Virus record (IMG/VR): IMGVR_UViG_3300036399_000439
Span: 1-28,035 of that record
Reading direction: 5' to 3' (one strand)
DNA: 28,035 nucleotides
Source: a virus
Positions within the stretch are counted from its first letter, which is position 1. Each line of letters starts with the position of its first letter. This document shows positions 9,329 through 27,004 of this stretch, piece after piece. The position numbers and the translations under genes are program-made. The notes below the pieces were generated by a model. It did not search any database, was not told where the DNA came from, and saw only the letters and a list, made by a program, of their open reading frames with translations.

Positions 9329-9346
9329 GCGTCCGAGGTTTAATCC

Positions 9347-9358
9347 GTACATAAATGA
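9347..9358 (+). promoter_or_regulatory. Repeated promoter-like motif GTACATAAATGA, copy 1
   Basis: An exact 12-base motif found in three intergenic gaps of this window. The first base is 25 bases before the ATG of the secreted protein gene, and a GGAG ribosome-binding site lies between. The core ATAAAT recalls T4-type late promoters (TATAAATA). It would drive the secreted protein, portal and following gene. The promoter role is inferred from repetition and position. Confidence 0.6.
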
Positions 9359-9371
9359 ATTGGAGACTTTT

Positions 9372-9722
9372 ATGAATCGGTTCCTGATCGCAGCTACGGT
9401 TTCCACGATGTGTTTCAACTGGACGGTGGAAGCCCACGCTTGGCCCCGCCGCCAATCCTCCCGCTCCAGCTACAGCTACTCCCAGCCTGTGTCAGGAGAC
9501 AACTCCACGGCACAGGGGGTGGCTGAAGCCTGTGCCCGCAGTGGGGTTCTTTCTCATATGGGCGGCAACCGTGGGTACGAAGGGCTTGGTATGGGCAGCA
9601 CCCGGGAAGGGGCCTACCGGAACTGCTGCTACGCCAATAGTGGGATGCCTGACTCTGATGTCGGTTATGCCAAAATGAGCAATGGGATGTGGGTGTGTTG
9701 CCGCAGATACGGGGGCCGGTAG
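9372..9722 (+). CDS. Secreted Cys-rich protein
   Basis: Starting at 9372, after a GGAG site and the repeated promoter-like motif, gives 116 residues; an upstream in-frame start would run through the motif. Residues 1-23 (MNRFLIAATVSTMCFNWTVEAHA) form a signal peptide with an AHA cleavage site. The mature part has a Ser/Tyr-rich stretch and then a compact domain with the patterns GVAEACARSG, HMGGNRGYEGLGMGST, AYRNCCY and GMWVCCRRYGGR. The cysteines probably form disulfides. From memory, the GxxxGxGxS...A..NCCY pattern is common in secreted planctomycete proteins, so a host-derived gene or host-surface function is plausible. It directly precedes the portal gene without spacing. It could act on the host envelope, or be displayed on the virion. 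Confidence 0.7.
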   Translation: MNRFLIAATVSTMCFNWTVEAHAWPRRQSSRSSYSYSQPVSGDNSTAQGVAEACARSGVLSHMGGNRGYEGLGMGSTREGAYRNCCYANSGMPDSDVGYAKMSNGMWVCCRRYGGR

Positions 9723-11849
9723 ATGAACGAAAACCTCCAGCCAGAGCTTCCTTCGGAGGGGTCAGATTCTGGCCCTTTTGAGGCCCCGCCGCCTGATGTC
9801 ATTCCGCAGAAGCGGATGGAGGACGCCCTTCGTGCCATCTCGACCTCTTGGCTGTCCAAGCTCAAGCAGGCAGAGAAGCACAAAAAGCCCTTCACGGATG
9901 ACGCCAAAGAAGGCATGAACTTCTTTGATGGTTCAGGAGACTGGTTCTGGAAGCAGGACGGCAGGTCGGCTGGCAACTACTCCAAGATTGCCCCGCCGTC
10001 TTTCAAGATGAGCCTGAACAAGGTGTTTGAAGCGGTCAAGCTCTTTGGCTCAGTCATCTACCACCGCAATCCGGTGCGGACTGTCACCCCAAGGACCTTC
10101 CCGCCAATCCCACCAGAGTCTTTGGGCATTGATCCAAGCCAGCCGCCGCAGATGGACCCCATGACCGGGCAGCCCATGCCGGACCCTAGGGTGGATCAGT
10201 ACGTCCAGATTTCTCAGCAGATCGGAACCATGGAGCGGCAGCGGGAGACCGTTGCTTCTCTTATGGAGACGTACCTGAACTACAGCCCTGTCGAGTTGAA
10301 CCTCAAGGAACACTCCAAAAAAGCTGTAGATGAAGGCATTATCAAAGGCATGGGGGTGTGGTGGACGGAATTGGTTGAGCTGCCTGCCTCAGAAGACGGC
10401 CAAACCTTTGGGATTATCGGCTCTTTCTGTGATTCGGTAGACAACCTCTTGATGGACCCTGATGCGGACGAGCAGGAAGACATCCTGTGGTGTGCCCGCC
10501 GCTGCGTTCACCCGGTCGATGAGGTGGCAAAGCAGTACGGCCTGAACAAAGAAGACTTGAAGGGGCACCTTGAGAGCTTTGTGGCCCGCTCCCAAGAAGA
10601 AGACCGGGACTACAAAACAAAGAAGCGGAACGGCAAGACCAACGACCTGTGCGTCTACTGGAAGATTTGGTCCAAGACGGGCTTTGGCCACACGCTCAAG
10701 GGATTCCCCAAAGAGTTTGCAGGGATGTTCGATGCCCTTGGTCAGAATTGCTATGTCGTGGTGGCCGAGGGTGTTGATTTCCCCTTGAATTGCCCAAAGG
10801 AAATCGCACTTGAGGAGCCCGACGAGTCTGGGCTGCCCAACAGCCTTTTCACCAAGAGCCGCTGGCCGATCCCCTACTACGCCGACCTCAACGGCTGGCC
10901 ATTCACCCCGCTCCAGTTCCACCGCAAACCGGGGTACATCTGGCCCATCTCTCACCTGAAGCCGGGTCTCAGTGAACTGAAGTTCCTGAACTGGGCCATG
11001 AGCTTCTTGGCAGGCCGGATCATGGTGTCCTGCAAGACCATGGTGGGTGTTGCGAAGGCTGCTGGAGATGACATCAAAGACCAGATTCTCAAGCACGAAG
11101 AGAACGGATTCTCCCTGATTGAGCTATCTGAAACTCTTGGCCGTTCGGTTGGGGACATCGTGAATGTCTTCCAGATGCCGCAGGTCACCCCGGATATATG
11201 GCAGATCATACAGGCCGTATCCGAGATGTTTGACAAGCGGGTAGGCCTAACCGAATTGGTCTATGGCATGACCCGCAGCCAGTTCAGGAGTGCGGCAGAG
11301 GCACAGGTCAAGTCAGAGCAGATTAGCGTTAGGCCAGATGACATGGCTAATGTCCTTGAAGACGCCATGTCTATGTTGGCAAGGAAGGAAGCCCTAGCTG
11401 CCCGCTGGCTTCTTCAGCCTCAAGACGTTGCTCCCATCCTTGGTCCGCTGGGTGCCGAGGTCTGGAACAGCCTGATTCAGCAAATGGACGTTCATGGTCT
11501 CGCCCGTGAGTTCGACTACAGGATCGAAGCTGGTTCTGCCCGCAAGCCCAACAAGGCAGGCAGGGTAGAGCAGATGCAGATGGCCATGCAGACGCTTGGC
11601 CCGATCCTGCAAGGCCTTGTCCCAATGGGTCAGGTTGATCCGCTCAACGCTCTCATCACCGACTGGGCCAGATCGCTCGACATCGACCCCAAGAACTACT
11701 TGGTTCAGCCGCCACCTCCCCCGCCGCCGCCACCCGGCCCTCCGTCTGGACCTCCAGCCAGCGAAGAAGGGAATCAACCCGGGCCACAAAGCGGCGGGGG
11801 GGCGGCTCCTGAAGAGATGCCCCAGATGCCACCGGAGATGATGGGATGA
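9723..11849 (+). CDS. Portal protein
   Basis: A 708-residue protein, large as in podovirus-type portals. The portal forms the ring at one head vertex through which DNA enters and to which the tail attaches. The N-terminal Pro/Glu-rich tail is followed by the wing and stem region; the features SFKMSLNKVFEAVKLFGSVIYHRNP and LKPGLSELKFLNWAMSFLAGRI resemble the conserved helices of large phage portals, and YGMTRSQFRSAAEAQVKSEQ the typical region before the crown. Near the C-terminus is a run of nine prolines (around residue 665) and a Gly/Pro-rich disordered end. It starts directly after the preceding stop and overlaps the next gene as ATGA. The length, helical pattern and place in the cluster make the call good; an ejection protein is the main alternative. 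Confidence 0.85.
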   Translation: MNENLQPELPSEGSDSGPFEAPPPDVIPQKRMEDALRAISTSWLSKLKQAEKHKKPFTDDAKEGMNFFDGSGDWFWKQDGRSAGNYSKIAPPSFKMSLNKVFEAVKLFGSVIYHRNPVRTVTPRTFPPIPPESLGIDPSQPPQMDPMTGQPMPDPRVDQYVQISQQIGTMERQRETVASLMETYLNYSPVELNLKEHSKKAVDEGIIKGMGVWWTELVELPASEDGQTFGIIGSFCDSVDNLLMDPDADEQEDILWCARRCVHPVDEVAKQYGLNKEDLKGHLESFVARSQEEDRDYKTKKRNGKTNDLCVYWKIWSKTGFGHTLKGFPKEFAGMFDALGQNCYVVVAEGVDFPLNCPKEIALEEPDESGLPNSLFTKSRWPIPYYADLNGWPFTPLQFHRKPGYIWPISHLKPGLSELKFLNWAMSFLAGRIMVSCKTMVGVAKAAGDDIKDQILKHEENGFSLIELSETLGRSVGDIVNVFQMPQVTPDIWQIIQAVSEMFDKRVGLTELVYGMTRSQFRSAAEAQVKSEQISVRPDDMANVLEDAMSMLARKEALAARWLLQPQDVAPILGPLGAEVWNSLIQQMDVHGLAREFDYRIEAGSARKPNKAGRVEQMQMAMQTLGPILQGLVPMGQVDPLNALITDWARSLDIDPKNYLVQPPPPPPPPPGPPSGPPASEEGNQPGPQSGGGAAPEEMPQMPPEMMG

Positions 11850-12391
11850 AAAACTTCATGCCGCAGGAAATCCTGAACGCCCCTGCCCATGTTCAGCAGC
11901 ACTACGTCAAGGTGCTTGCTATGGGCTACGGGGAGAGGTGGGCAGCCATGGTGGCTTTGCAGCAGCCCCCGGGCACCAAGGGCACCGACCGAGCCTTCCA
12001 AGAGGGACGCCTCGCTGGCAATCAGTGGGACGAACTCCCCGCTCGACAAGCCAAGAAGATGATCCGAGAGGCCAAGGCGGCAGGCATCAACATTTCAGGG
12101 AAACAATATGTAAGCGGCTTGGCAAACAAACTTGGCCATTGCGATCCTAGGGCTTGGGTGTCTGACTTGTCAGATGTCCGGCAGGTCGCAAAAGACCGGA
12201 ATCTTAATGTTTCTGGGCTAGTAAACATGGAGGCTATGGAGCTTCCCCCTATCAGGCACGACCTAAACCCGCGAATCGCCAAGGAGCTAGCAAAGAAGGA
12301 AATCGCCAAGAACCCCAAGCTCTCAATGCAGGACGCCTTGATAAAGGTCAAAGAAAAGCACGCGCCCAAATGGAAGAAGCCTGCACGTTGA
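11846..12391 (+). CDS. Conserved phage protein of unknown function
   Basis: A 181-residue, basic, mostly helical protein whose ATG overlaps the portal stop as ATGA. The N-terminal 60 residues (about MKNFMPQEILNAPAHVQQHYV onward) read like a short helical domain, with a GTDRAFQEG pattern. The central part has AGINISGKQYVSGLANKLGHCDP, typical of proteins that carry a small helical repeat, and the C-terminal 40 residues are Lys-rich (KELAKKEIAKNPKLSMQDALIKVKEKHAPKWKKP). Small proteins after the portal often act in head completion or as internal virion proteins, but no family is recognised. The last third is richer in A and AGR-free codons than the portal gene. Confidence 0.65.
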   Translation: MKNFMPQEILNAPAHVQQHYVKVLAMGYGERWAAMVALQQPPGTKGTDRAFQEGRLAGNQWDELPARQAKKMIREAKAAGINISGKQYVSGLANKLGHCDPRAWVSDLSDVRQVAKDRNLNVSGLVNMEAMELPPIRHDLNPRIAKELAKKEIAKNPKLSMQDALIKVKEKHAPKWKKPAR

Positions 12392-12402
12392 CGGTGATGC
12401 TC

Positions 12403-12414
12403 GTACATAAATGA
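12403..12414 (+). promoter_or_regulatory. Repeated promoter-like motif GTACATAAATGA, copy 2
   Basis: Identical to copies 1 and 3. The first base is 28 bases before the ATG of the first fibre-cluster gene, with GTAGGAG between as ribosome-binding site. The upstream context TGCTC is shared with the copy at 671. TTGACG at 12388 is too close for a standard -35 element, so a phage-type promoter is more likely than a host sigma-70 one. Confidence 0.6.
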
Positions 12415-12430
12415 CGTAGGAGCCCTTATT

Positions 12431-13060
12431 ATGGCGTGTGTACCGACAGCACCATCTACGCATTCCAACTGCTCCTCTGAAGAGCGTGGCTACCAGCGTA
12501 TCAGGGTCCGGCAGGATACCGAGGCCAACTGGCTGAAGAACGATCCGATCCTTGCATCGGGTGAGTTCGGGTACGTCATAGGGTCCACAGACCCAGCCAG
12601 AATGCTCAAGATTGGTGACGGGTGGGTTAAGTGGAGCCAGCTTCCATGGCTTGAGTTTGGTGCCGGTGACTCCGACCAGCACATTGTTTCCAACACCAAG
12701 CCACCCCCCGGCGAGGACGTTGGTGACCTGTGGATTTGCCCTGACCCGGATGTCGCACCCAAGGCATTTTCTCACGCCAACCCACCCCGCTATCTCCACC
12801 CGTTACTGCCAGCCCCGCAAGCTGCCCAAGGCTTTGTGGCTGCCGTGCCTGTAACTGTGGGCGGGAAGAGGCTCTTGCTGCCCCTCATGGAGGTGGTAGG
12901 TGTCTCCCCGTCCAAGTACCAGCCGTCACTGCTGCACTACTCAGATCAGCCAGTGACCACCAAAGAAGACGGCTCCAGCATCCAAGGCACCCCGATAGCT
13001 GGCGGCATCTACGCGATTGTCGGTGGCAAGAGATACATCCTCCCAGTCCTTGAAAGCTAG
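12431..13060 (+). CDS. Virion surface protein with Mtd-like N-terminal module
   Basis: A 209-residue protein heading the fibre cluster behind promoter-like motif copy 2. Residues 22-75 contain RVRQDTEANWLKNDPILASG, GEFGY and KIGDGWVKWSQLPW, the pattern of the N-terminal domain of phage tropism-determinant and tail-fibre proteins. It is followed by HIVSNTKPPPGEDVGDLWICP, a motif also present in three neighbouring fibre genes. The C-terminal half has two related stretches, VTVGGKRLLLPLME and AIVGGKRYILPVLES, suggesting an internal duplication. It has no collagen repeats and is short for a receptor-binding protein, so it may be an adaptor to which others attach. No variable region or reverse transcriptase is visible, so a diversity-generating system is not supported. 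Confidence 0.65.
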   Translation: MACVPTAPSTHSNCSSEERGYQRIRVRQDTEANWLKNDPILASGEFGYVIGSTDPARMLKIGDGWVKWSQLPWLEFGAGDSDQHIVSNTKPPPGEDVGDLWICPDPDVAPKAFSHANPPRYLHPLLPAPQAAQGFVAAVPVTVGGKRLLLPLMEVVGVSPSKYQPSLLHYSDQPVTTKEDGSSIQGTPIAGGIYAIVGGKRYILPVLES

Positions 13061-13062
13061 CC

Positions 13063-13200
13063 ATGACAGACAAAGAAGAGCCGGTCAAAGACGAGGCAGC
13101 AGTTCCCCCCAAGAAGATCGTAAAAGTGGCCGTCAAGGTCCTGAAGAAGATTCTGGAACTGACGGACAGTGAAGCCACCCCGAAGGAAAAGGCAGACTGA
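13063..13200 (+). CDS. 45-residue Lys-rich small protein
   Basis: An ATG at 13063, two bases after the preceding stop, opens a 45-codon frame that fills the space to the next gene and shares its last base with the next ATG (TGATG). The peptide starts acidic (MTDKEEPVKDEA) and has a basic amphipathic helix (PPKKIVKVAVKVLKKILEL), then an acidic tail. Exact packing between neighbours supports translation. The helix could bind nucleic acid or a membrane, or pair with a fibre protein. No family recognised. Confidence 0.55.
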   Translation: MTDKEEPVKDEAAVPPKKIVKVAVKVLKKILELTDSEATPKEKAD

Positions 13201-14918
13201 TGGCATCGCTTCTCTACTACTGGACCGGGACTGCGTGGGAACCCATCGCTGGTGGCGGCGGTGGCGGTACGGACGGTATGCACATTGTCTCGGAGACTAC
13301 TCCCCCTCCCCCGCCCAACATCGGTGACATCTGGATTCAGCCCAACGCTCCCGACGTTCCCGGCGGCACTGGTGAACCCGGCCCTCAGGGTGAGCCCGGT
13401 CTAGCTGCCACCATTGAGGTCGCAGAAACAACCACCATTGACCCCGGCCTGCCAGCGGAAGTGGTCAATGTCGGTAACGAGAGCAAAGCCCTCTTGGCAT
13501 TCAAGATTCCCCGTGGCTCAGACGGCTTGCCCGGGGAACCCGGCATCCAAGGGGAAGCTGGAGCCCAAGGCATTCAGGGCGAGATTGGCCCCGCAGGCCC
13601 ACAGGGCGAACCCGGCGTTCAAGGAGTTCAAGGTGAACCCGGTGAGCCGGGACCACAAGGCATCCAAGGTGAGCAGGGAATTCAGGGCGAACCCGGCGTT
13701 CAAGGCCAGCAGGGCATTCAGGGTCCAGCAGGTCTTGGCATCAAGTATGTAGGCACGGTTCCTACACAAGCCGACCTTCCAGAGTACGGCACCCAAGGCG
13801 ACCTCTATGTTGTTGCCGATCCCGTGCCCGCAAGAGGGTATGTCTGGGATGACGAGCAGGTGGCGTGGATTGACTCCGGTCCAGTGCAAGGCCCTCAGGG
13901 CGTGGAAGGACCTCAAGGCATCCAAGGCATTCAAGGCGAGCCCGGGGCTGCTGGCCCGCAGGGAGATCAGGGAATCCCGGGTGTTGCTGGGCCGCAGGGT
14001 GAAGTCGGTCCCGCTGGCCCTACCGCTATCGCCACTGCCACTGTTCTTGGTGGTGTGAAGATCGGGGCTGGCATAACGGTTGAGGCTGACGGCACCATCA
14101 GTGCAAGTGCTGGCAGTGAATACCTGCTGCCAAAAGCCAGTGCGACTGTTCTGGGTGGCATCAAGATTGGCAACGGGCTGGCGATTGATGCCAATGGAGT
14201 TTGCACGGCTTCCCTTGCTGGCAACTATGTCAACAAGGCAGGGGATGTCATGAACGGCCCCCTCCGGTATTCCGCATTTACTGGGGCCACGAACTTCAAT
14301 GGGTCAGACGTTTACACCTACTACGACGGCTCCTATTACCGGCTGTATATGCCGGGTGGGAAGCAAGCGTTTGTTGCTGCTCCAGACACGGCTGTTGTTC
14401 AGTTCTTGGGCGGCAACCCACAGACCCCGTTTGTCCCCGCCGTAGACAACGACCTCACCAACAAGAAGTACGTTGACGGGGCTGTCTCAGGAAGCACGAC
14501 TTTCCTGAAGCTGGCTGGCGGGACCATGACGGGGACCATCGTTGCCCCGACCGCAGTCAACACGATGACTTGGGCCTCGACCTACAACATCTTTGGCTCC
14601 AGCGGTGGCTGGGCGGTCAGAAATGTCAACTCCAACTTGCTGCTTGTGACCACTACCAGTGTCGCGGCGGTGGTGCTGCTGGAGGTGAAGGCAACCGGCG
14701 CAGCCATTCGGTTTGGCAGTGCAGGCCCCACCATTACCAATGTCTCTGGCGTGGTGTCCGTTTCCGCGAACTTGGAGTCCACCGTTGCAGCCCCTACGGC
14801 AGCCAGTCACCTGACCCGCAAGGACTATGTAGATGGGCGAGTGATTGCTCAGGCTGCTGGTGGTGCCGCTCCCGCTGTTACCGGCCTGTCCGCTGGCACT
14901 CTGTTTGTTGAGTATTGA
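13200..14918 (+). CDS. Collagen-like tail fibre protein
   Basis: A 572-residue fibre protein. The N-terminus (YYWTGTAWEPIAGGGGGG) is the module shared with three later genes, followed by HIVSETTPPPPPNIGDIWIQP. About residues 58-64 and 102-180 are Gly-X-Y triplets (GIQGEPGVQG types), interrupted near 181-230 by the module GIKYVGTVPTQADLPEY...VW...W, then more triplets (about 225-275). After this come two copies of ATVLGGxKIGxG, a DLTNKKYVDGAV motif, LAGGTMTGTI and a later RKDYVDGRV motif, all typical of trimeric tail-fibre shafts. Gly-X-Y regions probably form a collagen-like triple helix as a long spacer between virion anchor and receptor-binding tip. The repeated DNA inside makes length changes possible. 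Confidence 0.85.
   Translation: MASLLYYWTGTAWEPIAGGGGGGTDGMHIVSETTPPPPPNIGDIWIQPNAPDVPGGTGEPGPQGEPGLAATIEVAETTTIDPGLPAEVVNVGNESKALLAFKIPRGSDGLPGEPGIQGEAGAQGIQGEIGPAGPQGEPGVQGVQGEPGEPGPQGIQGEQGIQGEPGVQGQQGIQGPAGLGIKYVGTVPTQADLPEYGTQGDLYVVADPVPARGYVWDDEQVAWIDSGPVQGPQGVEGPQGIQGIQGEPGAAGPQGDQGIPGVAGPQGEVGPAGPTAIATATVLGGVKIGAGITVEADGTISASAGSEYLLPKASATVLGGIKIGNGLAIDANGVCTASLAGNYVNKAGDVMNGPLRYSAFTGATNFNGSDVYTYYDGSYYRLYMPGGKQAFVAAPDTAVVQFLGGNPQTPFVPAVDNDLTNKKYVDGAVSGSTTFLKLAGGTMTGTIVAPTAVNTMTWASTYNIFGSSGGWAVRNVNSNLLLVTTTSVAAVVLLEVKATGAAIRFGSAGPTITNVSGVVSVSANLESTVAAPTAASHLTRKDYVDGRVIAQAAGGAAPAVTGLSAGTLFVEY
13602..13705 (+). repeat. 23-bp direct repeat in the collagen region, 81 bp apart
   Basis: The 23 bases at 13602-13624 recur exactly at 13683-13705. 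The offset of 81 bases is 27 codons, or nine Gly-X-Y triplets, so recombination between copies would shorten or lengthen the fibre without breaking the frame. Confidence 0.8.
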
Positions 14919-14920
14919 CC

Positions 14921-15337
14921 ATGACCATGAAAGTCTTGAACGCCAATGTTTGGAAAGCAGCCACCCCCAAAGGTGTGCTGGTCAATGGTGCATGGCAACA
15001 GCCCAAGCGGGTGTCTGTTCTAGCCGGTGGAGCATGGAAGGTGGTTTGGGAAGAGCCGGTCGCTGCCGAGCCCCCCTACCTCTATGACATCACCATTGAG
15101 TATCTGCCCAACTACGAGGTGAAGTTCACTGCCAAGATCGGTGCCCCAGAAGACCCAGAAGACGCATTTATGTTCAGGTGCGTCCAGATGCCAAGGGACG
15201 GGTATACGGGCCGCGTGTTCAACAAAACATGGGTGGCAAACGGCTACTCCAAGCTCGACTGCACCCTTGAAGATATGTCCAACGTGCCGGGGCGAGATCG
15301 CCGCACCATCAACTTCTTCATCACTCCCCGGCCTTAG
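14921..15337 (+). CDS. Virion-associated protein in fibre cluster
   Basis: The ATG at 14921 lies two bases after the preceding stop and gives 138 residues; a second ATG lies two codons later, and a TTG at 14915 overlaps the fibre gene. The N-terminal 45 residues contain two related stretches, GVLVNGAWQQPKRVSVLAGG and GAWKVVWEE, a beta pattern often seen in small phage tail proteins that carry ...VLVNGAWK... text. The C-terminal 90 residues look like one beta-sandwich domain with an RDRRTINFFITPRP ending. No collagen repeats. It may be a fibre tip or accessory carbohydrate-binding domain, or a fibre chaperone. The family is not recognised. Confidence 0.65.
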   Translation: MTMKVLNANVWKAATPKGVLVNGAWQQPKRVSVLAGGAWKVVWEEPVAAEPPYLYDITIEYLPNYEVKFTAKIGAPEDPEDAFMFRCVQMPRDGYTGRVFNKTWVANGYSKLDCTLEDMSNVPGRDRRTINFFITPRP

Positions 15338-15340
15338 TCC

Positions 15341-15652
15341 ATGGCAAATGCAGCTTATTACTGGGACGGTAAACAGTGGCAGCCGCTTTCCGGCGGCGGC
15401 GGGGCTTCAGGTCCACAGGGGCCCGTTGGTCCTGTTGGTCCAGCCGGTGATTCGGTCAGCGTCTTTGTTCAACTCACTGAACCACAGCCAAACCGTGAAG
15501 GTGACTTCTGGATTGAGGAGCCTCCAATTGTGAAGACCCCTGAGAAAAACACCAAGGTTATTCGCCTTGAGAAGAAGAAGTATCCAACTCTGGATAGTTT
15601 GAAGAAGTACCCAACCCTCAGTGATATTGAAAGGAAGAAGAACCATGGCTGA
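15341..15652 (+). CDS. Short collagen-like fibre-family protein
   Basis: A 103-residue member of the same set. It starts with the shared module AAYYWDGKQWQPLSGGGG, continues with about five Gly-X-Y triplets (GPQGPVGPVGPAG), then VQLTEPQPNREGDFWIEEPP, a second module shared with its neighbours, and ends with a Lys-rich tail containing two KKYPTL repeats. It lacks any receptor-binding domain. It could be an anchor or adaptor subunit for longer fibres, or a gene shortened by recombination between collagen regions. Its stop overlaps the next gene start by a few bases. Confidence 0.7.
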   Translation: MANAAYYWDGKQWQPLSGGGGASGPQGPVGPVGPAGDSVSVFVQLTEPQPNREGDFWIEEPPIVKTPEKNTKVIRLEKKKYPTLDSLKKYPTLSDIERKKNHG

Positions 15653-16238
15653 CGTTAGAATTTGGGACGGGGTTCAGTGGGTTTCGTTGCAGGGGCCGGA
15701 AGGTCCGATTGGCCCAGCGGGTCCAGCGGGCAGTGACGGCGTGGCTGGCCCCACTGGTGCCGATGGTGCTGCCGGTCCCGCTGGCGAGCAAGGCATTCAA
15801 GGTATCCAAGGTGAGGTCGGACCTGCGGGTCCCGAAGGCCCTCAGGGTATTCAGGGTATCCAAGGTGTTGCCGGTTTGGGCATCAATTTCAAGGGCGAGG
15901 TCCCGACTGAAGGTGATCTTCCCTCAGGTGCAGCCCAAGGTGACAGCTACATCGTTCAGGCCGATGACTCGTTCTGGGTCTATGACGCTGCGACTAGCAC
16001 ATGGGTGAGCGGTGGTTCGATCCAAGGTCCGCAGGGTATTCAGGGCTTGGCTGGCCCAGCGGGCCCCCAAGGCGAGCAGGGTATCCAAGGTGTTGCCGGT
16101 GTTCAGGGTCCCGCTGGCCCGACTGGCAGTGACGGTGTTGCCGGTGCTGACGGTGCCGATGGGCTTAACAGCGAGGTCTATAACCAAACAGCAGAGCCCA
16201 CTCCGATCCGTGAGGGAGCTATCTGGTTGGTCCCGTAA
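15645..16238 (+). CDS. Collagen-like fibre protein with inserted module
   Basis: The ATG at 15645 gives 197 residues and overlaps the previous gene by eight bases; a start at 15621 would overlap it more. The shared anchor VRIWDGVQWVSLQGPEGP runs directly into Gly-X-Y triplets (about residues 17-75). The module GINFKGEVPTEGDLPSGAAQGDSYIV...FWVYD...TWVSGG follows, matching the one in the larger fibre gene. A second triplet region (about 126-175) and a terminal module TAEPTPIREGAIWLVP follow. The whole protein is thus made of parts found elsewhere in the cluster. It probably forms a thin trimeric fibre without a large tip. Confidence 0.8.
   Translation: MADVRIWDGVQWVSLQGPEGPIGPAGPAGSDGVAGPTGADGAAGPAGEQGIQGIQGEVGPAGPEGPQGIQGIQGVAGLGINFKGEVPTEGDLPSGAAQGDSYIVQADDSFWVYDAATSTWVSGGSIQGPQGIQGLAGPAGPQGEQGIQGVAGVQGPAGPTGSDGVAGADGADGLNSEVYNQTAEPTPIREGAIWLVP
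15852..16100 (+). repeat. 24-bp direct repeat, 225 bp apart, flanking a fibre module
   Basis: The 24 bases at 15852-15875 recur exactly at 16077-16100. The offset of 225 bases is 75 codons, so exchange between the copies would cleanly remove or duplicate the non-collagen module between them while keeping the frame. Confidence 0.8.
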
Positions 16239-16251
16239 TGGCACAAAGAGG

Positions 16252-16285
16252 AGGGGCACACTAAGGGGATTATGCCCTTGCCCCT
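16252..16285 (+). other. Compound hairpin between two fibre genes
   Basis: AGGGGC (16252-16257) pairs with GCCCCT (16280-16285), and inside it AAGGG (16263-16267) pairs with CCCTT (16275-16279), leaving a five-base bulge on the left and a seven-base loop. It occupies most of the 80-base gap before the gene at 16319. No T run follows, so it may be a processing site or attenuator, not a full terminator. Confidence 0.45.
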
Positions 16286-16318
16286 GTTGGAGGCGGCACA
16301 CCAAACGAGACAGGCAGC

Positions 16319-17614: not shown

Positions 17615-17622
17615 GAACCACC

Positions 17623-17928
17623 ATGACAACTGAAAACGAAGTAGTGACAGACACTGTAGCCGAGCCCGTCATCGACACCAGCGCAGCCGAACAGGCCAAG
17701 CGGGAGGCCGAGATGCAGGCAGAGTTGCAGGCCCAAGACAAGATGGCAACAGACTACATGGAGCGCGTTAATTCCGACATGGAGGCCCTGCGCGAAGAAG
17801 AGGCAAAGATTGCTGCTGAACAAGATGCCGCTCTCACTGAAGTTAGAGAGGCGTGTGATGCCGAACGCGAGGCTGTTGGCCTGCCTACGAGCGATGCGCC
17901 CACAAAAGAAGACAAGCTGCCAACCTAA
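17623..17928 (+). CDS. Acidic coiled-coil protein
   Basis: From the ATG at 17623 the product has 101 residues; an upstream in-frame start lies inside the preceding fibre gene. About residues 20-85 are Glu/Ala/Gln/Lys-rich with heptad-like spacing and no Gly or Pro, a clear coiled coil. The ends are Thr/Glu-rich and disordered. There is a single Cys (EACDAE). Its position between two fibre genes suggests a fibre-assembly helper or a trimerisation partner. No family can be assigned from such a composition. Confidence 0.65.
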   Translation: MTTENEVVTDTVAEPVIDTSAAEQAKREAEMQAELQAQDKMATDYMERVNSDMEALREEEAKIAAEQDAALTEVREACDAEREAVGLPTSDAPTKEDKLPT

Positions 17929-17937
17929 GGACCTGCC

Positions 17938-19623: not shown

Positions 19624-19630
19624 GTGAATT

Positions 19631-20698
19631 GTGTATTCGGCCTTCGACGCTTTGAGCTACCTGATGGACTCTGTGGGCGGCGGCGCACAGGATCAGGAAC
19701 ATCGTGTACTTAGGCAGGCCCTCTTCTCTGCCTACCGGGACCTTGTGTCTGTCAGGGACTGGCGGTGGTATCAGGCCGAGGAGCAGATCGACATTTGCGG
19801 TCAGGACACAATCTCTCGGCATACCCTGCCGTGGGGTGTCACCTCTGTTGATTCATTCATGCTGCCCCAGACTGGGGTCATTGCTGAGTACCTGCGGCCC
19901 ACTGAGTTTAACCGGCTGATTCACTTGCAGTTCCGTGGGTTTGCCCGCATTGCTTGGACGGTCATGCCTTCCACTCAGGTTCCCGATAGGTATGACCTCG
20001 TTGTCTATAACGGCTGGGCATCTGATAGCTGTGTTTCGGTCACATATCGCCGCCGCCCCCGTGACCTTCGCTTCACTGGATGGGAGCCGCAGACCAGAAA
20101 CGGCACGATCTCTTGGACTGACAAGGAGGTCATGGGTGACGGCACCACCTTCACCAACCTGATGATTGGGTCTGTACTCCGAGTGAGTGCTGACCCCGCT
20201 CGCCACCCCGAATCACTTACCGGAATGAACGCTTACTCCGACGAGGGGCTCATCTACGGTGTGGCCAATACCGGCAAGCTCTACGCCTACTCCCCGGCTG
20301 GCAAGATGGCTTACCCAGAGGGGACCAAGTTCGCAGTGACCGACTACTTGGACTTGGCACCCGGGATGTACACGGCCCTTTTATCTGGAGCCGAGGTCTG
20401 GCTGGCAAGGTTGATGGGCAAGAATATCGAAGGGGCCACGGGCATCTACGGCAGAGATTTGCGAATGGCTTTTGAGAGTGATGCCATCGCGGTCCTCTCT
20501 GGCCAAAGGAACGGCGGCGGTGGCCACGCTGGTGGCGGGGGTTATTACGCGCTCTGGTATCTCCGACCGGGTGTGGATCAAGGCACTGAGTGCTGCACAA
20601 CCGGCGGGCCCAATGCCAATGGCACTTGCTGCATCCCCCCGGAGATCAACGGCGGGTCCTCCAGCACGGCTTACGATAGCTGCGGGAATCCTATCTAA
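19631..20698 (+). CDS. Head-tail adaptor (tail tubular protein A-like)
   Basis: A 355-residue protein with a GTG start at 19631, preceded by AGGTGA; no ATG fits the N-terminus better. Residues 3-45 (FDALSYLMDSVGGGAQDQEH onward to AYRDLVSVRDWRWYQ) match the helical start of podovirus adaptor proteins that bind the portal and carry the tail nozzle. The middle is beta-rich (VTSVDSFMLPQTG...YLRPTEFNRL, VVYNGW...YRRRPRDL). The last 50 residues are Gly/Cys-rich (TECCTTGG, GTCCIPPE), an extra tail that is not usual for this family and resembles the Cys-rich style of other virion proteins here. It is followed by the nozzle gene with TAATG overlap, the common order in T7-like phages. Identification rests on the helical pattern and order. 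Confidence 0.7.
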   Translation: MYSAFDALSYLMDSVGGGAQDQEHRVLRQALFSAYRDLVSVRDWRWYQAEEQIDICGQDTISRHTLPWGVTSVDSFMLPQTGVIAEYLRPTEFNRLIHLQFRGFARIAWTVMPSTQVPDRYDLVVYNGWASDSCVSVTYRRRPRDLRFTGWEPQTRNGTISWTDKEVMGDGTTFTNLMIGSVLRVSADPARHPESLTGMNAYSDEGLIYGVANTGKLYAYSPAGKMAYPEGTKFAVTDYLDLAPGMYTALLSGAEVWLARLMGKNIEGATGIYGRDLRMAFESDAIAVLSGQRNGGGGHAGGGGYYALWYLRPGVDQGTECCTTGGPNANGTCCIPPEINGGSSSTAYDSCGNPI

Positions 20699-23589
20699 TG
20701 AAAATCTCCAAGTGGCTTGGGTGGGTCCCAGCCTTTTCCAGATACTTGCTCCCTCCCGGCGGTGCCGTCGAGCAGGTCAATCTGCATACTCTCATTGCGG
20801 GGCAGCTTACCTGCCGACATGGCTCCAAGAAGGTTGCCAAGACCAGCAGCAGAATGCTCTCCCTGTGGGGCCTGTCCGTAGGGCCAACCAAGGACGATGT
20901 GGTTCTGGGGCACTCGGACACCGGCAGCATTGTGGAGTTCAATGGCGGGACCGAGAAGCTGCTTCTGGAAGGGGCCTTTACGGGCGAACACCCAGTCACA
21001 TTTTCCCAAGGCCGCAGGGGCGAGGTATATGCCTACCAAGGCTACGGGAAGCGTGGCCTAGTCAGGGACGCAGACGGCAAGGTCAGGCCGGTAGGTCTTG
21101 ATGCCCCTGCCGACAAGCCTGCCATCGCTATCGACTCTAGCCCCAGCTACTACGTCGCCCGAATTGACATCACCGACGCTGGCAACGGCTACAACCTGCC
21201 TCCAACAGTCTCCATTGCCGCCCCTCCCGCAGGAGGCAGGCAGGCTGTTGCCCTGTCCCGCATAGCAGATGCTCAAGTTTCTGCCATTACCGTCAGCGAT
21301 GGTGGTGCTGGGTATGACAAAGTGCCATGCGTCACACTCACCGACACTCCCAACGGACCAGCCACTGGGACTGGTGCGGCTGCCACCCTAGAGCTTGAGG
21401 ACGGCCATGCCGAGGGTGACCCAGACACGGGCATTGTGTGGTTTGAGATTTCCGAACTGCCCACCTACTTCTGGCTCTGCCTTAATGAGTATGAGCGAGA
21501 AGGCAACGGCTACATCGTGCCGGTCACTGGTGGGTCTGGCACAGGCGCAAAGGCAATCTTTTTCTTTGATTCCCTCTACAACGGCAACTGCTACAAGCAA
21601 GATTCTGACGGCACAGACCTGACGGATCAGGGGGTCAGGGTGCAGGTGTACGATTTCGGCTCTGGCTATAAGGCGGGCGAAGAAGTTGTAGCCACTCTCC
21701 ACACGGCAGCCGCATGGCAAGCTGGTGCTGGGGTAGTCACAGGGCCTCGCTGCGACACTACCCAAGAGTGCCAAGTGCGGGCCAAGGGGTACACCCTATA
21801 TGACCCAAAGGCCCCCGACCAACTGACCATCATCAATGACAATCCGTACAAGCAGCGGAAAATCAAGACAACCATAACCAACGGTGGCTCTGGCTACCTC
21901 ACCCCTCCAACCTTCACCACTGAAGACGGGGATGTGGTTGAAACCGAGATCAACTGCGACGGTGCGGTCACTGAACTTAAGCTGCAAGAGCCCAACAAGC
22001 TCTACCTGTTCCCACCCAAAGTCTTAGACACGAACGGGGATGTGGGTGGTGCTAGGGCTCTGGCTATTGTTCGCCCGAACTTCCGAGGCAAGTATCAGGC
22101 ATATATCCGGTTCGTGAATGACACGGTGACCAAGGAGCAGGGCGGGCCGCTTTACAGCAATCTCTCCCCGGTCAACGAAGTGGATGCCGGTCAGGTGGCC
22201 AGCAAGCTGACATGGACGCTGCCGCTCACGGGCCCGCCCTCGACCACTCACGTTGAGCTATGGCGGTCTACGGCAGATCAGGCAACCACCTTGTTCCGCG
22301 TGGCCAAGCTACCCATTGGCACTGCCAGTTACACCGACACTATCCATGACGGTGACCTGATTGATGCCAAAAGGACGGACTACGAGGCACAGTCAATCCT
22401 GCTGTCCGATGGCCGCCTGAACCTGAACAAGTACGGCATTGCCAGCGACGGGTTTGCGGTTGGCACTGTGTTTCAGGATCGGTCTTTCCTAGGGGTGGAC
22501 ACCACCGGGAAGAGGCCGAACACCCTGCTCTACAGCGAGGCCGACAAGCCCGAGGCTGTTCCTGAGATCAACGAACTGGTTCTCCAGCAGAACGTGAGGG
22601 ACTCGGACTACATCACTGCCCTTGCGCCGTTTGCCGGGGCCCTCATGGTGTTCCAAACCCATCACTGCTACCGGCTCAACTTTGTCGCTAGGCCCGAGAT
22701 CGACGCTACCGTGTCTCTGGTTGCCTACCGGGGGTGCATTGGGCAACGCTGTTGGGATGTCTGGCTGGGCGATATGTATGTGCTGGACGAAACTGGGTTC
22801 TACAAGATGGACTCACAGGGCGGGGCGGAAGATGTGTCCGATGCCATTGCCACGCTGTTTCGTGCCAACACCGACCCCCTAGTGCAGACCATCGACTTCA
22901 CGAAGAAAGAGTGGTTCTTCCTCCACTGCGATAGGGCTCTAGGCATAATCCGAATCCATGTCTCTTTCACGGGAGATCAGGGCAAGTTCCCCACAAGGCA
23001 GATCGTCTATGACCCAGACACCAAGACCTTCTGGCTAGAGTCTTACCCCTATGTGTTTAGTGCTACGGCGGCTGCCCGTGCCAACCAAGACCTGCACACG
23101 GTCATTGCCAGCGAATCTGACCTGCACGTTCTTGGGCAGGGTCTGACCGACGATGGCCAGCCTGTACCCTATGCCTTCCGCACGGGCAACATGGCCTACG
23201 AAACTGACGAGACTGCCAAGACGGGTGGGCAGCAGGGTAGCCGCAATGTATCTGTGATCTACAAGCCAACCACAGATAGCTGCTTGCTGAAACTGGCCAA
23301 TTACTACAACGGCAGTAACACGCCACGCTCCAATGTAGCTATCAGGGACCGAGGGGTAGGCTTCGTCCACCAAACTGACGAGCCTGCCGCTACCGTGGAC
23401 ATGATTGCCCTGCCCCACCAAGAGGCCGAGAGCCATGGGGTAGCCCGCGCGTTGTTCGCCGGGAAGACAATCACCGACTTCTACGGCTCAGACAGTCATG
23501 TTTCCATTCGGCTTTACGGGCAGCAAGACAACTCGCCTGTTATACTCCATGAACTTGCCGTCAATGGAGTACAGGACAATGGAAAGTGA
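20698..23589 (+). CDS. Tail nozzle (tail tubular protein B-like)
   Basis: A 963-residue protein, longer than T7 gp12 (about 794) or P22 gp10 (472). Such proteins form the hexameric nozzle below the adaptor with a beta-propeller fold. The N-terminal 140 residues and the region from about 440 onward read like the family, for example the stretch from LLSDGRLNLNKYG to YVLDETGFYKMDSQGG, including NTLLYSEADKPEAVPEINEL and MVFQTHHCYRLN. Between about residues 150 and 430 is an insertion with five GxGY motifs (near 162, 202, 269, 321 and 397), three of them followed by a PPTV/PCV/PPTF-type strand. This insert is probably an exposed domain. The ATG shares a base with the upstream stop, and the end overlaps the HNH gene by eleven bases. 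Confidence 0.75.
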   Translation: MKISKWLGWVPAFSRYLLPPGGAVEQVNLHTLIAGQLTCRHGSKKVAKTSSRMLSLWGLSVGPTKDDVVLGHSDTGSIVEFNGGTEKLLLEGAFTGEHPVTFSQGRRGEVYAYQGYGKRGLVRDADGKVRPVGLDAPADKPAIAIDSSPSYYVARIDITDAGNGYNLPPTVSIAAPPAGGRQAVALSRIADAQVSAITVSDGGAGYDKVPCVTLTDTPNGPATGTGAAATLELEDGHAEGDPDTGIVWFEISELPTYFWLCLNEYEREGNGYIVPVTGGSGTGAKAIFFFDSLYNGNCYKQDSDGTDLTDQGVRVQVYDFGSGYKAGEEVVATLHTAAAWQAGAGVVTGPRCDTTQECQVRAKGYTLYDPKAPDQLTIINDNPYKQRKIKTTITNGGSGYLTPPTFTTEDGDVVETEINCDGAVTELKLQEPNKLYLFPPKVLDTNGDVGGARALAIVRPNFRGKYQAYIRFVNDTVTKEQGGPLYSNLSPVNEVDAGQVASKLTWTLPLTGPPSTTHVELWRSTADQATTLFRVAKLPIGTASYTDTIHDGDLIDAKRTDYEAQSILLSDGRLNLNKYGIASDGFAVGTVFQDRSFLGVDTTGKRPNTLLYSEADKPEAVPEINELVLQQNVRDSDYITALAPFAGALMVFQTHHCYRLNFVARPEIDATVSLVAYRGCIGQRCWDVWLGDMYVLDETGFYKMDSQGGAEDVSDAIATLFRANTDPLVQTIDFTKKEWFFLHCDRALGIIRIHVSFTGDQGKFPTRQIVYDPDTKTFWLESYPYVFSATAAARANQDLHTVIASESDLHVLGQGLTDDGQPVPYAFRTGNMAYETDETAKTGGQQGSRNVSVIYKPTTDSCLLKLANYYNGSNTPRSNVAIRDRGVGFVHQTDEPAATVDMIALPHQEAESHGVARALFAGKTITDFYGSDSHVSIRLYGQQDNSPVILHELAVNGVQDNGK

Positions 23590-24325
23590 CTTTGACCAGA
23601 AGGTTGCAGCATTGAGGGGTAAGGTTCCTGCCAAGAAGGTCATCCGAAAGAAGAAGTCCGACTGCACCCCCGAAGAGTGGGCTGGGAACCTGAACTATTA
23701 CGCAGCCAGATACGCAGCAAACCCAGAGCCTCATCGCCAAAGAGCATCGGCTTGGGCAAAAGACAACAGGGAAAAGAATAGAGTCAGGCAGCGGCGGCAA
23801 CGTGACGCTGACCGAGAGAAGTACAGAGAAATGCGCCGCGCCTACTACCGGAGCGATCTTCAGGTAACCGAGGCAATACGGGCAAGAAACAAGCGATGGA
23901 AGCAAAACAACAAGGAGAAGGCCCGCGAAAGCCATAGGATTTCGCTATCTGACCCTAGCAGAAAGCTGGCGGCAGACCTTCGCATTCGCCTGAACGTGGC
24001 TGTTAAGGGCGGGGTCAAGCAGGGCTCTGCCGTACATGATCTCGGCTGCACAATTGCCGAACTCTGGGATCATCTTGAGTCCAAGTTCCAGCCGGGAATG
24101 ACTAGAGAGAACAGGGGAAAGGTGTGGGTGATAGACCACATGTACCCACTGTCAAAGGCTAACCTGATTGGCAGCCGGACAGAGTTCTTGGCGGCAAACA
24201 ACTGGAGGAATCTCCAGCCGCTTACTAAAGCACAAAACATGGAAAAGGGGAACAGGGTAACCCCCGAGGCCCAAGTCCTATTTGACCAGTTGTGTGCCGA
24301 GTTCAGGGAGCAAGTGGCGGCATGA
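23579..24325 (+). CDS. HNH endonuclease (homing type)
   Basis: I choose the ATG at 23579 (248 residues), four bases after AGGAC; other in-frame ATGs at 23498, 23549 and 23564 lie deeper in the nozzle gene. The N-terminal 130 residues are very basic and helical (many Arg/Lys, RQRRQRDADREKYREMRR), fit to bind DNA. The C-terminal half has LRIRLNVAVKGG, AVHDLGCTIAELWDHLESKF and the core VWVIDHMYPLS...NNWRNLQPLTKAQNMEKGN, the DH...N...N...K pattern of HNH nucleases found as free-standing homing enzymes in phages. It lies between virion genes and has no packaging role that can be seen. Free-standing HNH genes usually cut rival phage DNA at the matching locus and spread by repair. Start uncertain, domain call good. 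Confidence 0.85.
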   Translation: MESDFDQKVAALRGKVPAKKVIRKKKSDCTPEEWAGNLNYYAARYAANPEPHRQRASAWAKDNREKNRVRQRRQRDADREKYREMRRAYYRSDLQVTEAIRARNKRWKQNNKEKARESHRISLSDPSRKLAADLRIRLNVAVKGGVKQGSAVHDLGCTIAELWDHLESKFQPGMTRENRGKVWVIDHMYPLSKANLIGSRTEFLAANNWRNLQPLTKAQNMEKGNRVTPEAQVLFDQLCAEFREQVAA

Positions 24326-24930
24326 GCTTTTCTAAGGCAATCAATGACATCAGTCTCTTGCTCACCCAAGGCGGCACCCCGGCGGCACACAGCCAAGACA
24401 TTGCCGCCCGGTTAGTCAACGCTCTGGAAGGCTATTACGACTTCCGAGAAAGCCAAAAAGGCAACAGTGCTGTAACTGACTCTTCGTCAGACTCCTCTGC
24501 CTTCAGGCGGGCTTTCTCTCCCCCTGAATCCAACCCCGGTGGCATAGCTGGTGCTGATGGCTCCGATGGACTAGGGGCTTATGCGTGGGCCGTGGGCAAG
24601 GATGGTAAGGATGGGGTTGATGGCGACGGCACTACCCTCAATGACTACCGCAGATATGAGACATTCAACGTAGGCGGCGGTGGTGGTGGCGGGCTCGACA
24701 TCCGGTCAGTGAACTGCATGGACCTGAAGGCCAAGCTCAAGTCCTGCGGAATTGAAACCGGGGGCGACTGCGACTGCTCGCAAAATCTGGAGTGCCCGCC
24801 GGGGTCGGGGATCGTTCGCGGACAAAACATCTGTAATGTCCTAGACGATCACGCCAGACAGCTAAAGAAAATCAGAGAGCGGCTGGACAAGATTGAAAAG
24901 ATGCTTGAAGAAGCGGTCGATTGCCCATGA
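24322..24930 (+). CDS. Virion protein with short collagen, Cys-rich and coiled-coil parts
   Basis: The ATG at 24322 overlaps the HNH stop as ATGA and gives 202 residues; starts further up fall inside the HNH gene. The N-terminal 50 residues are helical. About residues 80-110 hold collagen-like triplets (GADGSDG, GKDGKDGVDGDG), then a run of seven glycines near 125. A Cys-rich stretch (about 135-175, with CGIETGGDCDCSQNLECPPG) follows, and the last 30 residues are a charged coiled coil (DDHARQLKKIRERLDKIEKM). This layout suits a small trimeric surface fibre with a disulfide-rich knot. It overlaps the next Cys-rich gene as ATGA, so the two are likely to act together. Confidence 0.7.
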   Translation: MSFSKAINDISLLLTQGGTPAAHSQDIAARLVNALEGYYDFRESQKGNSAVTDSSSDSSAFRRAFSPPESNPGGIAGADGSDGLGAYAWAVGKDGKDGVDGDGTTLNDYRRYETFNVGGGGGGGLDIRSVNCMDLKAKLKSCGIETGGDCDCSQNLECPPGSGIVRGQNICNVLDDHARQLKKIRERLDKIEKMLEEAVDCP

Positions 24931-26564
24931 GTAAGCTGCTCAAGAAAGACGGCAAACTTGCCAAGCAGGGTGGCAAACTGGTTGTCACCGACGATCCTGC
25001 CAAGTGCCCGTGCTGCAATCCCATCGACTGCACTTGTGCCGATTCCAGCAACTTGCACATCAATGCCAACACTGACTTCTCTGATATGGACAACCCCAAG
25101 GTTGCCTATCTGATCGACTGGAGCCCTCCCGACACCTGCAACGAGAGCGACTTTGACTTTGATATTGAGTACCGAGACAAGGACGGAAACAAAACTGGCG
25201 GCACCACCCAGCCAGCCACGAAAGGCCAGACTCAGGGCAGCGTGACCATGCCGGGTTTCCCCGGGCTCTGCTCCCAGCCAGAGGGTCAGATTCACTCGGT
25301 GGCCGTCAGGCTGGTGCCCCGCAGTGCTTCATGCCAGCCGGGAGACTGGGTGGAAGCTGGCGTTATGGGGGCAGACTACGAGAGCAATTGCCCGCCGCCA
25401 CCCCCATGCCAGCCTGCCCCCGATTGCCAAGATGCCTTTGTCTCTAAAGCTCAGTGCAACGGCAAGGAAGAAGCGTGGGTCAATTGTTCCAACAACGACT
25501 GCACTGCCAACGACTTTCAAGAAGCCAAGTGCCTTGAGGGCCTGCCAGAGGCATTGGAGTCGCAGGGCTGGAACGTGGTTGTGCGGAACGAGCAGTGCTG
25601 CGAGTGCGGCCCGACTGGGCCAGAAGACGGCACCCAGTTGATGAATGTATTCGCTTGCTGCGAAGGCACCGTAGACGGCCTTGTTGCCAACTTCATTTAC
25701 ATACCCCGCAACGAAGACGATCCCTGCCAGTGGTGTACTGGCCTGTCTGGGGTTGAGGCAACATTCAAAGACGGAAAGCCGGTCTGGTCTATCCAGCGTT
25801 GCACCCCGCCGCAACCCTGCGGTGATTGCGTTCCAATACCCGAAATGACCGACCTCAAGCTAGAGGTCAGGGGAGAACCCGGCAAGGAGGAGGTATGCGT
25901 TTTAGCGACCGCCCAGTGGACTCCACCCGATGGCTGCTATGCGTCCGATCAGGAAGCGCGAGATAAGGTCAGCATTGTCTTTGAGTTTCTCGACAAAGAC
26001 CGCGAGGTGATCCAAAGCATTGGAGGCCCCGCAAACATTGGTGAGAACATCGTTGGCTATTGCAGCTCCTTAGTTCCGGCGTGTGACCCCTCCTCCCCGA
26101 AGGCAGAGTTCGCCAGAGCGAAGGCGGTATCCGATGAATGCGAGAGTGAGTGGTCGCGTGAATTTGGACTGCCGGGTGGATCGGCCTCTTGGGAGGACAT
26201 CTGCAAGCCGCCGCAGCCCGATGGCTACATTTGTCAGGGGCCGTTCTCGCAAATCTGGGAGTGTGCCCCGTGCAACGAGTGCGCGGGCCAGCCGGAAGTC
26301 TACGCCACGATGGAGGAGTGCCAAGCTGCCTGCAAGCCGCCCGACCCGCGATGCTTGCCGCCCGCAATATGCACATGGTCGCCACCTGATTGCGGTGGTG
26401 AGTGCTGGCTGGATGCCGTATGGGATGACTCAGACCCATTGCCCCCAGCCTATTGTGCGTCCCGTCCGTATGACTGCACAAGCAAGTCGGCTTGCGAAGC
26501 ATGGGTACAGGCCAACCCGAATCCTCCCTGCGTGGGGCGACAAGAGGAGAACCCCCTCCCATGA
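24927..26564 (+). CDS. Large Cys-rich virion surface protein with duplicated module
   Basis: A 545-residue protein from the ATG at 24927 (ATGA overlap). By my count it has 45 cysteines, about 8 percent. The start KLLKKDGKLAKQGGKLVVTD is followed by CPCCNPIDCTC. Two fibronectin-like modules can be matched by eye, near residues 55-150 (IDWSPPDTC...FDIEYRDKDGN) and 305-420 (AQWTPPDGC...VFEFLDKDRE). Each is followed by a Cys/Pro-rich segment, and a third Cys-rich segment (ICTWSPPDCGGECWLDAVW) ends the protein. Short knots such as YATMEECQAAC resemble small disulfide domains. There is no signal peptide, so oxidation must occur after release or in the particle. It is probably on the virion surface. 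No known family recognised. Confidence 0.7.
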   Translation: MSKLLKKDGKLAKQGGKLVVTDDPAKCPCCNPIDCTCADSSNLHINANTDFSDMDNPKVAYLIDWSPPDTCNESDFDFDIEYRDKDGNKTGGTTQPATKGQTQGSVTMPGFPGLCSQPEGQIHSVAVRLVPRSASCQPGDWVEAGVMGADYESNCPPPPPCQPAPDCQDAFVSKAQCNGKEEAWVNCSNNDCTANDFQEAKCLEGLPEALESQGWNVVVRNEQCCECGPTGPEDGTQLMNVFACCEGTVDGLVANFIYIPRNEDDPCQWCTGLSGVEATFKDGKPVWSIQRCTPPQPCGDCVPIPEMTDLKLEVRGEPGKEEVCVLATAQWTPPDGCYASDQEARDKVSIVFEFLDKDREVIQSIGGPANIGENIVGYCSSLVPACDPSSPKAEFARAKAVSDECESEWSREFGLPGGSASWEDICKPPQPDGYICQGPFSQIWECAPCNECAGQPEVYATMEECQAACKPPDPRCLPPAICTWSPPDCGGECWLDAVWDDSDPLPPAYCASRPYDCTSKSACEAWVQANPNPPCVGRQEENPLP

Positions 26565-26989
26565 CCACCTGCGACAAGAGGTTCCTGATAGCCCGCTGCC
26601 AAGAAAGGGGCTACTCCCTAGCGGAAGTCATGCCCTGCGTAGTCAGGCAGATAGACAAAGACCTGTGGGTGATAGACGAAACCCACCCCAGCTACCCCCA
26701 TTCCCGGGAGCCCAAGCCGCCCCGGTGTCTGGCAGGCACGGAACTCAAGAAGCTCCTCAAGCGAGTCGGCATTGAGGCTACCCCAAACTGTAGCTGTAAC
26801 TCTAGGGCAGCCATGATGGACAGCATGGGATGCCCATGGGTTAGGGAGAACATTGATCTAGTGACTAGCTGGCTAGAGGAAGAGTCCAAGAAGCGGGGCC
26901 TGCCTTTTATCAGGATGGCTGGCAAGGCATTGGTCATGACTGCGGTCAAGCTGGCTGAGAGAAAAGCCCATGTCGTGCCCGGGAGGTAG
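26561..26989 (+). CDS. Small conserved Cys-containing phage protein
   Basis: The ATG at 26561 overlaps the previous stop as ATGA and gives 142 residues. The N-terminus (CDKRFLIARCQERGYSLAEV) is followed by a beta pair with DLWVIDETHPSYP, a Pro-rich linker, and a helical domain ELKKLLKRVGIEATPNCSCN...MMDSMGCPWVRENID...WLEEESKKRGLPFIRMAGKAL. The second domain, with CSC and a later Cys, is a small module that I have seen in environmental phage and planctomycete sequences, often near virion genes; its function is unknown there too. It ends the Cys-rich block and is followed by promoter-like motif copy 3. Confidence 0.7.
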   Translation: MTTCDKRFLIARCQERGYSLAEVMPCVVRQIDKDLWVIDETHPSYPHSREPKPPRCLAGTELKKLLKRVGIEATPNCSCNSRAAMMDSMGCPWVRENIDLVTSWLEEESKKRGLPFIRMAGKALVMTAVKLAERKAHVVPGR

Positions 26990-26992
26990 TCG

Positions 26993-27004
26993 GTACATAA
27001 ATGA
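26993..27004 (+). promoter_or_regulatory. Repeated promoter-like motif GTACATAAATGA, copy 3
   Basis: Identical to copies 1 and 2. The first base is 29 bases before the ATG at 27022, with AGAAGGG between as ribosome-binding site. It starts the block of Gln-rich virion proteins that runs out of the window, supporting a role as late promoter. Confidence 0.6.

Follow-up and report, generated by a model that had tools for sequence, protein, structure and literature searches.

A short conserved sequence as a probable late promoter core ahead of virion-assembly genes in an uncultured phage group

The DNA analysed here, called the window below, is a stretch of 28,035 nucleotides (positions 1 to 28,035 of the IMG/VR virus record IMGVR_UViG_3300036399_000439), and it represents part of a genome from an uncultured phage group. 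Its genes encode a head protein, a portal (PHROG; Pfam SU10/P22 portal), tail and fibre proteins and, by a weak Terminase_6N match, a terminase. Several fibre genes with tandem collagen-like GPQG repeats occupy positions 13200-16240, and two endonuclease VII-like reading frames (PHROG 1035) are found within the structural region at 6723-7397 and 23498-24325. Three exact copies of the sequence GTACATAAATGA are present on the + strand; they begin 25, 28 and 29 nt ahead of an ATG, and each of these intervals contains a purine-rich ribosome-binding site (Table 1). The module after the tail genes, which begins behind the third copy, probably encodes internal virion proteins; for its first gene, no relatives were confirmed in IMG/VR.

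Table 1. Motif copies, predicted promoter parts and adjoining genes in the window.
Feature	Position	Strand	Remarks
Putative late promoter core, copy 1 (GTACATAAATGA)	9347-9358	+	Exact match; core GTACATAAA kept at orthologous sites in G001-G007
Copy 1, candidate -10 hexamer CATAAA	9350-9355	+	Predicted transcription start 9362 (T-1 G+1)
Copy 1, position of weak -35-like box	9326-9330	+	TGAGC, poor match; register shifts by 1 nt from clade to clade
First gene after copy 1, small protein with signal-peptide-like N-terminus	9372-9722	+	
Portal gene, next after the 9372-9722 gene	9723-11849	+	
Putative late promoter core, copy 2	12403-12414	+	Candidate -10 hexamer 12406-12411; predicted start 12418 (T-1 A+1)
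Copy 2, weak -35-like box	12382-12386	+	TGCAC
First gene of the tail/fibre module (tail-assembly / Mtd_N-like N-terminus)	12431-13060	+	
Putative late promoter core, copy 3	26993-27004	+	Candidate -10 hexamer 26996-27001; predicted start 27008 (T-1 A+1)
Copy 3, weak -35-like box	26972-26976	+	GTCGT
First gene of the module past the tail genes	27022-27672	+	
Possible intragenic motif copy (GTACATAAATAT)	676-687	+	In scaffold-like gene; the major head protein gene (1073) follows about 390 nt downstream

A preliminary description of this DNA had reported the three copies, all on the + strand and 25-29 bases before an ATG with the ribosome-binding site between, and we have confirmed the coordinates and the strand. 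It had judged them unlikely to arise by chance, and this is borne out by a count of 20 window sites with up to three mismatches to the motif, against 9.1 +/- 3.0 expected, a total that none of 100 shuffles reached; with one mismatch, no further copies were found in the window. The statement that the copies always lie in gaps holds for the three exact ones, but not for all copies, because the near copy GTACATAAATAT sits within a scaffold-like gene. Clades A, B and C have all conserved the codons GTA-CAT-AAA (or AAG) at this intragenic copy, although GTA makes up 2-12% of valine codons there. Since the three-codon window takes about the 15th place among 104 in codon identity, this conservation is suggestive of an internal promoter as a hint and is not a proof.

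Relatives of the window were collected from IMG/VR, in which 20 loci were found by the terminase and 80 by the portal, and about 25 relatives with portals 57-100% identical have been compared. Exact end overlaps, as in complete circular assemblies, are present in five of them, G006, G018, G024, G030 (127 bp) and G008 (55 bp), and were found later also in G038, G044 and G048. Complete circular genomes of the group are about 60-65 kb long and have two arms, a rightward arm with the structural genes followed by exonuclease/Erf/helicase genes, and a leftward arm. In the latter, an AAA/MoxR-like ATPase and a VWA/metallopeptidase-like DUF2201 protein are conserved in the group (L026:6777-9602, minus strand; G006 46777-49602). 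The portal had no match among deposited phage records, and a search of 84,980 GTDB genomes for portal homology, in prophage or host, found nothing. Gene starts were taken from a home-made gene caller.

The scan of complete genomes and relatives for the motif, which the preliminary description had proposed, found it restricted to the heads of late modules on the structural strand. The consensus across about 25 relatives is G[TG][AC]CATAAA[T]. At orthologous sites of close relatives, GTACATAAA is invariant and the flanks and the last three bases vary (GTACATAAATAC, -TAA, -AAGA); of the 12 bases originally described, therefore, GTACATAAA(T) stands as the conserved part, and the trailing TGA does not. 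Distant clades carry the motif as GGACATAAAT or GGCCATAAAT, as found by de novo repeat counting in G028, G032 and G035; this counting, blind to the motif, returned from the more distant genomes GGACATAAACC, GGGACATAAAT and GGCCATAAATC, all intergenic and on the structural strand.

Nearly every long genome has two to five CATAAA sites near gene starts, nearly all on the structural strand. In 18 long genomes, the word ACATAAA occurs 47 times at 10-60 nt upstream of late-strand genes, 13 times elsewhere on the late strand, never upstream of opposite-strand genes, and eight times elsewhere. For 41 other words of the same letters, the mean number upstream of late-strand genes is 0.98 and the maximum, reached by an overlapping word, is 6. 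Because many of the genomes are related, these counts are not all independent, and the safer basis is provided by six clade representatives and a deduplicated set of 35-38 sites; in the former, no other 7-mer is as enriched as ACATAAA (19 of 30 copies, p 5e-25). For G038, one pattern search gave a single motif copy and a looser pattern gave three sites. A bare scan of IMG/VR for GTACATAAATGANNTAG has been left out of the evidence, because its 63 contigs are about the number that we estimate by chance for 15 fixed bases in so large a collection.

On the family map, the motif is located before the scaffold/head/terminase/portal operon, past the portal and one more gene ahead of the fibre genes, and ahead of the module that comes after the tail genes; clade E has an extra site before an accessory module running towards the sigma gene described below. 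Copy 1 is specific to the clade of the window. No sites were found on this map before the exonuclease/Erf/helicase block or before leftward genes. The motif is thus short and conserved, upstream of late genes in the sense orientation, and present in few copies.

A start-site signature accompanies the motif. At 19 of the 38 deduplicated sites, T followed by a purine is found exactly 12 nt after the C of CATAAA; at other offsets, with the T/A of the motif itself and the zone of the start codon set aside, the count is 0-6, and random offsets gave a mean of 3.8 and a maximum of 12. If CATAAA is placed at -12 to -7, the T/purine step corresponds to -1/+1 of an ordinary bacterial promoter, and a weak, drifting box found 20-24 nt further upstream of CATAAA at the deduplicated sites to a -35-like box at -36 to -32. 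The motif can then be described as a -10-type element with a start-site signature at the right spacing, and the predicted starts in the window are each preceded by T. On held-out scoring, the box ranks first at -25 to -23 in clades B and E and second at -24 in clades A and D, in these four clades no more than one base away from its place, and it fails in clade C; as a strict -35 consensus, it is only partly supported. At L026:17835-17860 (G006 57835) and L035:2819, the ATG stands exactly at the predicted +1, which suggests a leaderless mRNA at this promoter copy.

The preliminary description had supposed a sigma factor encoded outside the window, and in the relatives a sigma-70-family gene, conserved and syntenic, lies outside the region that the window covers. 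The protein, of about 170-185 residues with regions 2 and 4, was found in every complete genome examined. The first nine genomes examined, complete or nearly so, all showed Sigma70 region 2 and/or 4 (detected through region 2 in eight and through region 4 in G033), and the gene is present also in G036, G038, G043, G044, G045 and G048; in total, 51 IMG/VR loci have it. It is the last gene of the rightward arm and overlaps or abuts a leftward recombinase-like gene. The window record stops short of this region, and the gene is presumably carried by the window's own phage as well. The motif class was present in all 13 further long sigma-bearing contigs searched, and 33 of the 38 copies share the strand of the sigma gene.

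Sigma alignments were made of eight members and then of 38. Compared with profiles of solved structures in the PDB, they matched sigma factors only (best RpoE, 2.9e-9; also FliA, WhiG and SigK), and the PHROGs match was RNA polymerase sigma factor (6e-15). Pfam Sigma70_r2 was found in 37 of the 38 members and region 4 models in 23-24 of 38; in clade A, region 4 was not detected by Pfam. AlphaFold2 models had pLDDT values of 75.7 and 84.4, with a pTM of about 0.5 that makes the relative placing of the domains uncertain, and the predicted fold resembles sigma factors, best WhiG and ECF SigL. The protein thus has the build of an ECF-type factor, with regions 2 and 4 only in less than about 200 residues and region 4 below Pfam detection in clade A, and the weak, clade-variable box, failing in clade C, is the candidate -35 element for region 4. 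The RNA polymerase gene that had been proposed as the other target of the search was not found: PF00940 (T7-like RNA polymerase) is absent from the 29 relatives searched, with a T7 positive control at 1e-109, and a promoter for a T7-like single-subunit RNA polymerase was rejected on these grounds.

Taking these results together, we consider it likely that the motif forms the -10 part of a late promoter of these phages and that this promoter is read by the host RNA polymerase with the small phage sigma factor; very probably, the 12-base sequence serves as an on switch ahead of the virus-assembly genes in this phage group. Promoter activity, lateness and recognition of the motif by the phage sigma are what we infer from sequence, and the link between sigma and motif is drawn from their co-occurrence and from the absence of another phage polymerase. 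In the mechanism that we propose, the host polymerase would transcribe the early arm, the phage sigma would be made from the middle region, and it would then steer the host polymerase to CATAAA promoters at the heads of the late modules, namely head/packaging, portal or fibre, and post-tail; expression of sigma would thereby turn on the structural genes. At each such promoter, CATAAA would occupy -12 to -7, transcription would start 12 nt after its C at the T/purine step, and the box would lie near -36 to -32.

Another reading, which we regard as unlikely, leaves the late promoter to a sigma factor of the host, housekeeping or alternative, possibly with a phage activator, and assigns the phage sigma to other promoters. 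The indirect nature of the link between sigma and motif leaves room for this, and in clade E leftward genes are preceded by another repeated element, CTGCGGAGTCTGG, possibly a promoter of some sort. This leftward-arm element, however, was found in clade E only, whereas both the sigma gene and CATAAA occur in all clades, and for this reason the sigma pairs better with CATAAA. The confinement of the motif to late modules also fits a factor under phage control. Matches to the host sigma-70 sites (TTGACA/TATAAT) in the window are at chance level, five against 5.8 expected, and none with up to two mismatches was found upstream of genes in six relatives; on these two results, host sigma-70 promoters of this type were rejected.

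The closeness of the motif to the ribosome-binding sites downstream might instead point to a post-transcriptional element, a part of the mRNA leader that sets translation or stability, and some sites in clades E and B do lie in leader inverted repeats, with a downstream complement of at least 6 bp at 8 of 38 sites against 1.1 expected. We think this very improbable, because the distance between motif and start codon spans 12 to 59 nt, so that the two have no fixed geometry, and in one site class the ATG directly follows the motif (G006 57838). A leader hairpin is missing at most sites (mean z -0.2), and a translational or hairpin role was rejected since the leaders are not generally structured; the initiator step at a fixed spacing is a promoter signature. 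Least probable of all, in our estimation, is a DNA site for another process, such as an operator, replication, packaging or recombination between modules. The motif does stand at module boundaries, which are likely recombination points too, but its orientation is strict relative to transcription and the leftward arm has none, the T/purine step keeps a fixed distance, and copies are found at unrelated gene starts in one genome.

Other repeated elements have been observed. In the leftward arm of clade E (G028, G030, G033, G044 and G048), the element CCGCTGCGGAGTCTGG occurs as GCGGAGTC; of its 71 copies, 37 are situated upstream of leftward genes. It might be an early promoter, an operator or a leader element. 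In the leftward arm of G006, G008, G018 and G024 (L026 and others), a repeated intrinsic-terminator-like sequence, CCCCTTCGGGG then TTTTTTGTTG, is found between genes. Long inverted repeats spanning promoter, leader and start codon (GCCATAAATCCC GTGA GGGATTTCTATGGC) are present in clade E (G032 1291, G028 11797 and G033 36631, portal-oriented), and these may hide the ribosome-binding site.

With regard to the host, a DUF1559 (SBP_bac_10) protein with a type IV pilin-like N-methylation motif is encoded among the fibre genes of G006 (L024:12353-13315, E 8e-40), and proteins of this DUF1559/N-methyl kind are typical of Planctomycetota; Rhodopirellula baltica has 74 such genes, which have been called planctomycetes-group-specific (PMC2754498). 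This is only a hint that the phage group possibly infects Planctomycetota. Literature searches for late promoters of planctomycete phages or for phage ECF late promoters found nothing on point. We raise, with less than even confidence, the idea that phages possibly of Planctomycetota have a small-sigma lineage of their own and an undescribed promoter type, with C at -12, a weak -35 and a six-base discriminator, whose transcription would begin at the ribosome-binding site or immediately ahead of it and, at one conserved site, with the ATG itself, giving a leaderless mRNA. The analysis provides a testable temporal programme for uncultured phages without a portal match among deposited phage records, and a new phage sigma family paired with a promoter and a start site predicted to the single base. 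The compact sigma/promoter pair is open to in vitro testing and, if the host is a planctomycete, would give a handle on transcription in that phylum.

Among known systems, FliA and WhiG of the sigma-28 group and the ECF sigmas are the best profile and fold matches of the phage sigma. The FliA -10 element, GCCGATAA, has ATAA in common with CATAAA, and the FliA -35 box is TAAA, unlike the box found here. The phage sigma lacks the length of a sigma-28 protein that includes domain 3, and the identity is low.

The late promoter of T4, used with gp55/gp33/gp45, is TATAAATA. The preliminary description had seen a likeness to it, which stands for the -10-type core with the shared ATAAAT, and also the late structural genes and a small, divergent sigma-70-family protein are in common. 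An invariant C is present here where T4 has T, and PHROG 234 (late sigma) matches the phage sigma only weakly (best 1.7e-4). The likeness does not extend to the factor itself, since gp55 resembles sigma in domain 2 only and a separate protein takes the part of region 4 (PMC2988020), whereas in the phage sigma both regions, 2 and 4, belong to the same protein, which is not an orthologue of gp55; a T4-type late system was therefore rejected.

The closest precedent, both for layout and for logic, is found in the Kuravirus-like podoviruses phiEco32 and 7-11, whose middle and late promoters are read by the phage sigma gp36 (PMC4331800; PMC3594737). The present group differs in the motif, TAATGTATA in phiEco32 (PMC4331800) against G[TG]ACATAAAT here, and in the place of the sigma gene, which in phiEco32 does not share the strand of the structural genes and here is at the end of the structural-strand arm. 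Compared with the single gp36 sequence by hhalign, the phage sigma gave a probability of 0.1% and was not alignable. Because of this and the differing consensus, membership in the gp36 family was rejected, and the group is likened to the phiEco32 late system and not counted as a member of it. The likenesses are a podovirus-type genome, an ECF-kind phage sigma acting, as we suppose here, on the host RNA polymerase, and a few short, well conserved -10-type late promoters ahead of structural genes (PMC4331800; PMC3594737), together with the Pfam match of the window portal to SU10_portal, from a phiEco32-like phage; by analogy, the system of this phage group may work like the late system of phiEco32.
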